In this document: one piece after another, positions 30,799-33,692 of the stretch
Layout: each line of letters begins with the position of its first letter
Position numbering within the stretch: position 1 is the first letter of the stretch
NCBI GenBank assembly: GCA_025463565.1
Contig: JAODAT010000075.1
Span: 1 to 64,000, forward strand
Length of the DNA: 64,000 nucleotides
Source: Microbacteriaceae bacterium
GTDB lineage: Bacteria > Actinomycetota > Actinomycetes > Actinomycetales > Microbacteriaceae
Direction: 5' to 3'
Notes under the pieces: generated by a model
Databases searched by the model: none
The model's input: the letters and a program-made list of their open reading frames with translations, nothing else
Told to the model about the DNA's origin: nothing
Translations under genes and position numbers: made by a program

Positions 30799-30820
30799 CC
30801 GAGTACTGCACCCGAGCTGC

Positions 30821-30912
30821 GGAAATTCAGGACTTTGGCTCGAGGGCAGACTCTGCGTCCGCCTGTTTTCGGGACCTGCGTACTTGGTTCACGACCAAAG
30901 TCCTGAATTTCC
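30821..30912. repeat. Inverted-repeat element copy 7 (56-bp interior)
   Basis: Arms 30821-30838 and 30895-30912 are perfect complements. The copy starts 22 bp after the stop of the NAD-binding gene, and its right flank is CGAAGGTG. It is the first of two copies 67 bp apart between convergent genes. Confidence 0.95.
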
Positions 30913-30979
30913 GAAGGTGAGGATGCGGAACGTGCCAGTTACGGCGCGTCCCTTCGCGCGCTCCAGGCCCTCGAGTTGC

Positions 30980-31059
30980 GGAAATTCAGGACTTTGGCGC
31001 GCCCGAAACGCGGCTGAGCCCAAAATGGGCACACGGGATGACCAAAGTCCTGAATTTCC
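30980..31059. repeat. Inverted-repeat element copy 8 (44-bp interior)
   Basis: Arms 30980-30997 and 31042-31059 are perfect complements. The interior carries GCCCA-AAA-TGGGC. It lies 16 bp beyond the leuA stop. Copies 7 and 8 share the left flank pattern GAG(C/T)TGC and the right flank CGAAGGTG but have unrelated interiors. Confidence 0.95.
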
Positions 31060-31075
31060 GAAGGTGGAGGGCGGG

Positions 31076-32884
<1,809 letters not shown>

Positions 32885-32893
32885 TCAGCACTG

Positions 32894-32932
32894 GCCGCGA
32901 CGAGTGAGGCCTGGGTTAGGACTCGTCGCGGC
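32894..32932 (-). promoter_or_regulatory. Attenuator-type hairpin in the leuA leader
   Basis: On the minus strand GCCGCGACGAGT (32921-32932) pairs perfectly with ACTCGTCGCGGC (32894-32905) around a 15-nt loop. The 5' arm overlaps the last codons of the leader peptide, so ribosome position would decide whether the hairpin forms. It lies about 60 nt before the leuA ATG. Confidence 0.7.
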
Positions 32933-32960
32933 AGCTAAGGAGGAGCAGACCGAACAACAC
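32916..32960 (-). CDS. leuL: Leucine-rich leader peptide of leuA (14 residues)
   Basis: Far below the ORF-track cutoff. It reads (M)LFGLLLLSCRDES and stops at TAA, with five Leu codons in fourteen, four of them consecutive (CTG CTC CTC CTT). The GTG start (32960) lies exactly six bases after TACCCT, so translation would begin at the 5' end of a leaderless transcript. The Arg-Asp-Glu-Ser codons form the 5' arm of a perfect 12-bp hairpin. Ribosome-mediated attenuation of leuA by such peptides has been predicted for Actinobacteria. This copy fits: stalling at Leu codons leaves the arm free to pair, whereas reaching the stop covers it. Confidence 0.75.
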   Translation of the reverse strand: MLFGLLLLSCRDES

Positions 32961-32972
32961 GCTTTCAGGGTA
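32961..32972 (-). promoter_or_regulatory. Putative leaderless promoter of the leuA leader
   Basis: TACCCT (32967-32972), six bases, GTG 32960. The promoter overlaps the divergent Nudix promoter, whose -10 lies 13 bp away. Confidence 0.55.
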
Positions 32973-32996: not shown

Positions 32997-33692
32997 ATGG
33001 ACCCCAAGGCCTTCCGCGTCGCCGCGACGGTGCTGCTGGTGCGTGATGACCCATTCGAGGTTCTCATGGTGCGCCGGCATTCGAAAGCGACATTCGCCTC
33101 ACGTCTTGTCTTTCCCGGTGGCGTGGTCGATCCGGATGACTCAGACGAGGCGTGGCTGCCGCTGGTCACAGGTGCCGAGTCGCTCGACGCCGAGGAGCGG
33201 ACGCTGCGGATCTGCGCGTTCCGCGAAACGTGGGAGGAGACCTCGATTCTGATCGGCGCCGAGCGTTCGCCCGCACCCGGCGGCACGTTCCGTGAGGTCG
33301 TGACGGCCGCGGGCATCCGTCTCCCGCTTGACGCGTTGCAGCCGTTCGGGCACTGGATCACGCCGGATGCCGAACCCCGCCGCTTCGACACCTACTTCTA
33401 TCTGGCGCAGGCGCCCGCCGGCCAGACGGCGATAGCCGACGGCGGTGAGACGGTGGAGCTCGAGTGGCGCTCCCCCGCGCAGGAGGACGAGACGCTCATG
33501 TTTCCCACGTTGATGAACCTGATGCGGCTGGCCGGGAGTACGGATGTCGCGTCGGCCTTGCAGGCGGCGTCGGCTCGACCACAGGTCAGCGTGAAACCGA
33601 CGCTCGTGATGCGCGACGACGGAACGGCACTGGTCACCATCGATTCCGACGCAGGCTACCCCCTCACGGAATTCGTGCATCGACCGCTTTAG
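32997..33692 (+). CDS. Nudix hydrolase
   Basis: 231 residues. 'ATVLLVRDDPFEVLMVRRH...LVFPGGVVDPDD' is followed, after an insert, by the catalytic helix 'RICAFRETWEETSIL', a Nudix box with expanded spacing as in the NUDT19/CoA-diphosphatase-like group. The substrate may be a nucleoside diphosphate derivative or CoA ester; it cannot be fixed. ATG 32997 gives the family N-terminus and the track's 32634 start is inside leuA. The stop overlaps that of the MprF-like gene by four bases. Confidence 0.88.
   Translation: MDPKAFRVAATVLLVRDDPFEVLMVRRHSKATFASRLVFPGGVVDPDDSDEAWLPLVTGAESLDAEERTLRICAFRETWEETSILIGAERSPAPGGTFREVVTAAGIRLPLDALQPFGHWITPDAEPRRFDTYFYLAQAPAGQTAIADGGETVELEWRSPAQEDETLMFPTLMNLMRLAGSTDVASALQAASARPQVSVKPTLVMRDDGTALVTIDSDAGYPLTEFVHRPL

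Follow-up and report, generated by a model that had tools for sequence, protein, structure and literature searches.

A LEU element with a predicted leaderless leucine leader peptide before leuA of a Microbacteriaceae bacterium, and its probable action by ribosome-controlled translational attenuation

The LEU element of actinobacterial leuA genes was described by Seliverstov et al. in 2005 as an open reading frame with Leu codons, a hairpin whose loop enters a pseudoknot, and a base stem in which the Leu codons pair with the leuA ribosome-binding site (PMC1262725). The genomes of that study included Leifsonia xyli, which belongs to the Microbacteriaceae. The element has been known since then without an accepted mechanism, and the published view doubted that the peptide is sensed. 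Leu-codon mutants of S. coelicolor, as they are cited in that paper, gave ambivalent results that were not those of attenuation (PMC1262725). In Streptomyces lividans TK24 the leader leuL1 was mapped as leaderless, and no Rho-independent terminator was found (PMC8079986). The leu leaders of Corynebacterium have been filed as ribosome-mediated, transcriptional attenuation, in the passages that treat them without mechanistic proof (PMC4046766, PMC5784534; Neshat et al. 2014 cited therein).

The leader analysed here lies before leuA of a Microbacteriaceae bacterium, in a stretch of 64,000 nucleotides which is called the window throughout. This leader belongs to the LEU elements published for actinobacterial leuA: like those of PMC1262725, it stands before leuA and has an ORF with a Leu run, a hairpin (in the window with a candidate loop pseudoknot), a base stem and no terminator. 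A leaderless Leu peptide before leuA is already known, and the window adds another member. The coordinates of its features are collected in Table 1. The nearest named relatives are Microbacteriaceae.

A preliminary description of the locus had reported a 14-codon GTG ORF six bases after TACCCT and a perfect 12-bp hairpin (H1) upstream of leuA, and both are present in the sequence. The ORF, 14 codons and a stop (GTG TTG TTC GGT CTG CTC CTC CTT AGC TGC CGC GAC GAG TCC TAA), carries four Leu codons in succession. The stop codon had been placed within the 5′ arm of the hairpin; it was found at 32918-32916, in the loop just 3′ of that arm, and 85 nt separate it from leuA, whose ATG is at 32830. A leucine leader peptide for leuA is supported; an attenuator in the sense of a transcription terminator is not, since H1 has no U-run. 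The proposed leaderless start agrees with the strict −10 spacing in the family and with the leaderless mapping of the S. lividans homologue (PMC8079986). The spacer between TACCCT and the GTG (32960-32958) is the 6-nt GAAAGC. Transcription probably starts at 32960, and the message would then begin with the leader GUG.

On the plus strand, a MutT-like (Nudix-type) gene (32997-33689) is divergent from leuA. Its start codon and the −10 hexamer of leuA are about 25 bp apart, which means that the promoter regions of the two genes must overlap. Directly downstream of leuA, at 30808-31072, inverted repeats of 27-35 nt occur in two pairs (CGGAAATTCAGGACTTTGG / CCAAAGTCCTGAATTTCCG) and resemble a mobile palindromic repeat.

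Table 1. Coordinates of the leuA leader and its predicted RNA elements in the window
Feature	Position	Strand	Remark
−10 hexamer TACCCT, TGC before it (extended −10)	32967..32972	-	6 nt 5′ of GTG
Leader peptide ORF MLFGLLLLSCRDES and TAA stop, predicted leaderless	32916..32960	-	homologue S. lividans LeuL1 MRFGLLLLSCRGEGL (PMC8079986)
5′ strand of base stem GGUCUGCUC (Gly4-Leu5-Leu6 codons)	32943..32951	-	minimum-free-energy and centroid fold
Sensor codons CUG CUC CUC CUU	32937..32948	-	last is CUU in 195/208 relatives
5′ arm of hairpin H1 (GCCGCGACGAGT)	32921..32932	-	perfect 12-bp; 4/10 core pairs compensated
H1 loop strand CCAGGCC, candidate pseudoknot partner	32908..32914	-	
3′ arm of hairpin H1 (ACTCGTCGCGGC)	32894..32905	-	no U-tract after
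Candidate pseudoknot strand GGUCUGG, pairs with H1 loop	32861..32867	-	
3′ strand of base stem and leuA ribosome-binding site GAGCAAGAGACC (GAGC, AGACC paired)	32831..32842	-	
leuA, 2-isopropylmalate synthase, 584 aa	31076..32830	-	TIGR00970 839 bits vs cut-off 697

The arrangement of promoter and leader was compared among leuA loci. For loci of the Microbacteriaceae type, TAnnnT-N5-8-RTG with a Leu-rich leader was found in 107 of 110, and the remaining three also had the element, with a variant Leu run or spacing. Among the 107, 92 had a spacer of 6 nt between TAnnnT and RTG and 13 had one of 7 nt, TG stood at the extended −10 position in 96, and the start codon was always GTG or ATG. When RTG codons of the window were taken at random, only 0.4-0.9% of them had TAnnnT at this distance. 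Nearly all of 109 further loci from the class had a Leu-rich leader, with the −10 hexamer at the same spacing in 78. A covariance model was built from 47 leuA leaders, and the window element scored 54.3 bits against it (E 2e-9), a value that is partly circular because the window sequence was in the training set. Of 80 genomes from the family 78 contained a match to the model, as did 240 of 246 from the class. It also scored strongly in two families outside the class, where the fetched loci again precede leuA-like genes. Rfam, which is without a LEU element family, gave two tRNAs and no leader match over the window at the gathering threshold, and chance matches only at a relaxed E-value.

The 139-nt leader folds with a z of −3.8 relative to 200 dinucleotide shuffles; the predicted folding of the region is not chance. 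Of 209 loci, 208 kept 9 or all 10 pairs of H1. Two-sided compensatory changes were seen at 4 of its 10 core pairs in the 47 sequences, and the leader stop codon fell in its loop in 207 of 208 loci. In the minimum-energy and centroid folds of the window, the base stem joins GGUCUGCUC with GAGC...AGACC and ends immediately 5′ of the leuA ATG; it is modest, with 5 + 4 bp and a 3-nt bulge.

The pseudoknot was assessed by swap tests, the alignment there being too gappy for column-wise covariation. In 33 of 38 families the H1 loop was a better fit to its own downstream strand than to the strand taken from another family (P 4e-6, with incomplete correction for relatedness, as in all the swap tests). 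In the window, which has an insertion there, CCAGGCC can pair with GGUCUGG. For the sensor strand, that is the Leu run, the ribosome-binding site of its own gene was a better partner than a swapped one in 26 of 38 families (P 0.03); among the leuC elements this held for 12 of 14 (P 0.001). Compensated helices between the two were seen in the leuA test (CTCCTGCTT/GAGCAGGAG in L151 and TCCTTCTTA/TAAGAAGGA in L024) and in elements with other targets (TCTCCTGCTT/AAGCAGGAGA in L261 and TCTTCGTACTTCGC/GCGAAGACGGAGA in L269). One control was flat, and one, the H1 loop against the ribosome-binding site, was nominally significant with a tiny effect (11.69 vs 11.60), so composition adds some bias to these tests. 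Duplex energies of the whole leader start with the 40 nt upstream of leuA, set against shuffled, swapped and recoded partners, gave almost no signal because unrelated helices dominate; the signal emerged once the pairing of the sensor strand with the ribosome-binding site was taken alone. A pairing of UUAGC with a downstream GCUGA, picked out by eye in the family, was rejected, as it is not kept in the Microbacterium and Curtobacterium types.

The accessibility of the leuA site (−15 to +3) was then modelled by folding with a 30-nt ribosome footprint held unpaired. Over 200 leaders the mean unpaired probability was 0.36 for the free RNA, 0.52 with a ribosome stalled on the Leu codons and 0.40 with a ribosome of the same size at the stop codon. 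The modelled value was higher for the stalled than for the free state in 161 leaders, and higher than for the stop-codon state in 158. For the window the model gave 0.40, 0.68 and 0.42, respectively. Together with the exchange of sensor codons described below, this modelled accessibility is why translational attenuation is favoured, and the LEU element of the window probably works by ribosome-controlled translational attenuation. With RNA polymerase starting at 32960, the leader GUG would open the message. When leucine is ample, the ribosome would pass the four Leu codons and reach the stop in the H1 loop; the strand GGUCUGCUC would then be free to pair with GAGC...AGACC at the leuA ribosome-binding site, and translation of leuA would stay low. 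When charged tRNA-Leu is scarce, the ribosome would stall on the Leu codons and cover the GGUCUGCUC strand, and the leuA site would open. H1 and the pseudoknot of its loop with the downstream sequence would shape the fold. The sequences themselves show the ORF, the promoter spacing, H1 and its covariation, the cognate fit of sensor strand and ribosome-binding site, and the dependence of the sensor codons on the target gene; the transcription start, the stalling and the direction of the leucine response are inferred from them. Rho might add termination when leuA is untranslated.

The choice of sensor codons was also uneven. The last Leu codon was CUU in 195 of 208 loci and CUC in the others save one CUG; among the Leu codons of these leuA genes as a whole, CUU accounts for 2.9% and CUG for 53%. 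To judge from such counts, rare codons are selected in the sensors. The two codons preceding the last Leu were nearly all CUC or CUU within the family, where C or U at the third bases of the Leu codons matched the gene's own ribosome-binding site (P < 0.0005); outside the family this match was negative (P 0.61). Pairing was rejected as the reason for the near-invariant CUU: CUC or CUG would pair more strongly. Because CUU is not the best-pairing choice, the reason probably lies in decoding; the isoacceptor for CUU and CUC might, for example, be what is sensed.

Elements of this type were also found before other genes. A second one in the same genome (G000 contig C134, 7735-7829, minus strand; L220 1501-1595, L233) lies directly before leuC and scored 66.4 bits, higher than the leuA one. 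Its leader MFLGLLLLRCRDES follows TAGCCT-N6-GTG and is predicted to be leaderless. Weak model matches elsewhere in this genome (C66 and C75, E 0.3-0.75) were discarded as chance, being without a leader and in one case within a coding frame. At least two elements were present in 53 of 80 family genomes. For 50 further elements the targets were assigned as leuC (14), LeuA or LeuA2 paralogues (14) and leuB, mostly followed by ilvE (22), and H1 with the stop in its loop was retained in nearly all. The sensors before leuA, leuC and leuA2 counted 793 Leu to 17 Val/Ile codons, those before leuB-ilvE 29 Leu to 44 Val/Ile (Fisher P 1e-40, a nominal value, as codons of relatives are not independent); an example of a leuB-type leader peptide is MRSVFVLIDCRGEA. 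The covariance model that yielded these candidates derives from leuA leaders, so the switch to Val/Ile runs against its bias. In the leuB-type sensors GUA supplied 21 of 23 Val codons, compared with 1.4% in leuB genes, and AUU 9 of 21 Ile codons, compared with 3%.

We lean towards the view that the elements form a regulon-wide and class-wide RNA chassis of Actinomycetes. H1 with its loop stop would serve leuA, leuA2, leuC and leuB-ilvE, the sensor codons would be replaced according to the product (Leu or Val/Leu/Ile), the strand that carries them would at the same time be the anti-RBS strand, and the rare CUU, GUA and AUU would be selected for sensitive decoding. In the literature searched (many subscription papers lie outside it), no description was found of leuC, leuA2 and leuB-ilvE as further targets whose sensor codons are exchanged.

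Several further features were observed at these loci. Elements with Val/Leu/Ile sensors and a strong preference for GUA stand before leuB-ilvE in L242, L243, L248, L254, L258, L264, L269, L278, L282 and others, and at some of these loci a citramalate synthase-like gene comes next. Between the element and leuB, the loci L254, L258, L264, L269, L278, L279 and L282 share a small conserved ORF, about 32-45 codons long, which ends in an ALQ..MDRRDNGG-like motif at the C-terminus of its product. At several leuB-type loci the sensor strand pairs with the ribosome-binding site of this small ORF and not with that of leuB. Overall, the test of sensor and ribosome-binding site pairing was not significant for the leuB type (11 of 20); the leuB-type element seems to control the small ORF or a distant start. 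Weaker elements of one family (L245, L246 and L247), with leaders MLVVRRRSGV, QKLLVTRRSGV and ALVTRRSGV, precede short proteins; that of L245 matches a stand-alone LeuA allosteric domain (PF08502), and those of L246 and L247 had no Pfam match.

Other explanations of the leader were weighed against translational attenuation. If leuA is not translated, its mRNA would for that reason alone be open to Rho, and Rho-dependent attenuation, in which replete ribosomes leave the leader early and Rho binds the untranslated stretch while stalling protects or reshapes it, draws on this as well as on the lack of an intrinsic terminator; Rho has been proposed for actinobacterial cys leaders (PMC1262725). The cognate pairing of the sensor codons with the ribosome-binding site, and the shift of its accessibility with the position of the ribosome, would be left unexplained, and as an account of its own this one is unlikely, but it could act jointly with the translational switch. 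In classical transcription attenuation, intrinsic termination would take place at H1 or a relative of it, and a ribosome stalled on the Leu codons would let an antiterminator form. The overlap of the leader peptide with a stable GC-rich hairpin fits this, and the actinobacterial ilvB and leuS leaders act in this way or resemble such attenuators (PMC1262725, PMC13236596). However, no U-run follows H1 in the window, where the next sequence is CAGUGCUGAUUAAACGC, and none is reported for S. lividans leuL1 (PMC8079986); terminator-like sites were not found on the minus strand of the window, nor was a conserved antiterminator, the consensus fold of the 47 sequences being without a conserved alternative helix. 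A ribosome at the stop codon in the loop would, moreover, melt H1 and not favour it. A classical attenuator is very improbable.

Very improbable, too, is the reading in which a regulatory protein binds the LEU element, an ML1624-type DEAD-box protein as suggested in 2005, and the peptide is not sensed. This was proposed from the phylogenetic pattern and from the S. coelicolor mutants that did not fit attenuation (PMC1262725), but it does not predict that Leu runs give way to Val/Leu/Ile sensors at other target operons with H1 retained, that the reading frame and the position of the stop are kept, or that rare synonymous codons are selected. The leader might also be translated from an ordinary initiation site on a transcript that starts further upstream. 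As this would allow, TAnnnT is absent 5-8 nt before the start codon in some other families, at several loci of the Streptomyces and other types and in most leaders of the leuB type; the strict spacing in the family, the window GTG without a ribosome-binding site upstream and the S. lividans homologue mapped as leaderless (PMC8079986) speak against it, and we regard such a start as improbable.

For translational attenuation by the ribosome, the change of sensor codons with the target operon in a constant RNA frame is natural evidence of ribosome sensing, and it argues against the protein-binding idea. If the Leu codons are both the sensor and a pairing strand, Leu-codon mutants would alter the two at once, and ambiguous results would be expected from them. 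A test by Leu-codon replacement, as suggested in the preliminary description, is confounded in the same way, because these codons also pair with the leuA ribosome-binding site. The genes leuC, leuA2 and leuB-ilvE join those likely to be under LEU-type control, and leuA attenuation is a target in amino-acid production strains of Corynebacterium.

Compared with the described systems, the present reading departs from PMC1262725 in two respects: leader-peptide control was set aside there for a protein ligand, whereas ribosome sensing is favoured here, and the element was reported only before leuA and inside one transposase, whereas it is also found here before leuC, leuA2 and leuB-ilvE with changed sensor codons. 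The peptide of S. lividans TK24 leuL1, MRFGLLLLSCRGEGL, is nearly identical to that of the window and differs in the second codon and the C-terminus (PMC8079986). The leu leaders of Corynebacterium glutamicum and C. diphtheriae likewise have four successive Leu codons upstream of leuA, but the C-terminal half (LLLLRRGG) differs from that of the window (PMC4046766, PMC5784534). In the leaderless polycysteine attenuators of mycobacteria (Canestrari et al. 2020, as cited in PMC9094748) the sensor codons match the product of the operon, as they do here; the amino acid and the genes are others, and the comparison covers the leaderless sensor ORF and its codons. The ilvB1 leader of Mycobacterium tuberculosis resembles the LEU design in that branched-chain amino acid codons (LVVI) in a leader ORF control a branched-chain amino acid operon, but it works with a Rho-independent terminator and antiterminator, unlike the base stem with the ribosome-binding site described here (PMC13236596).
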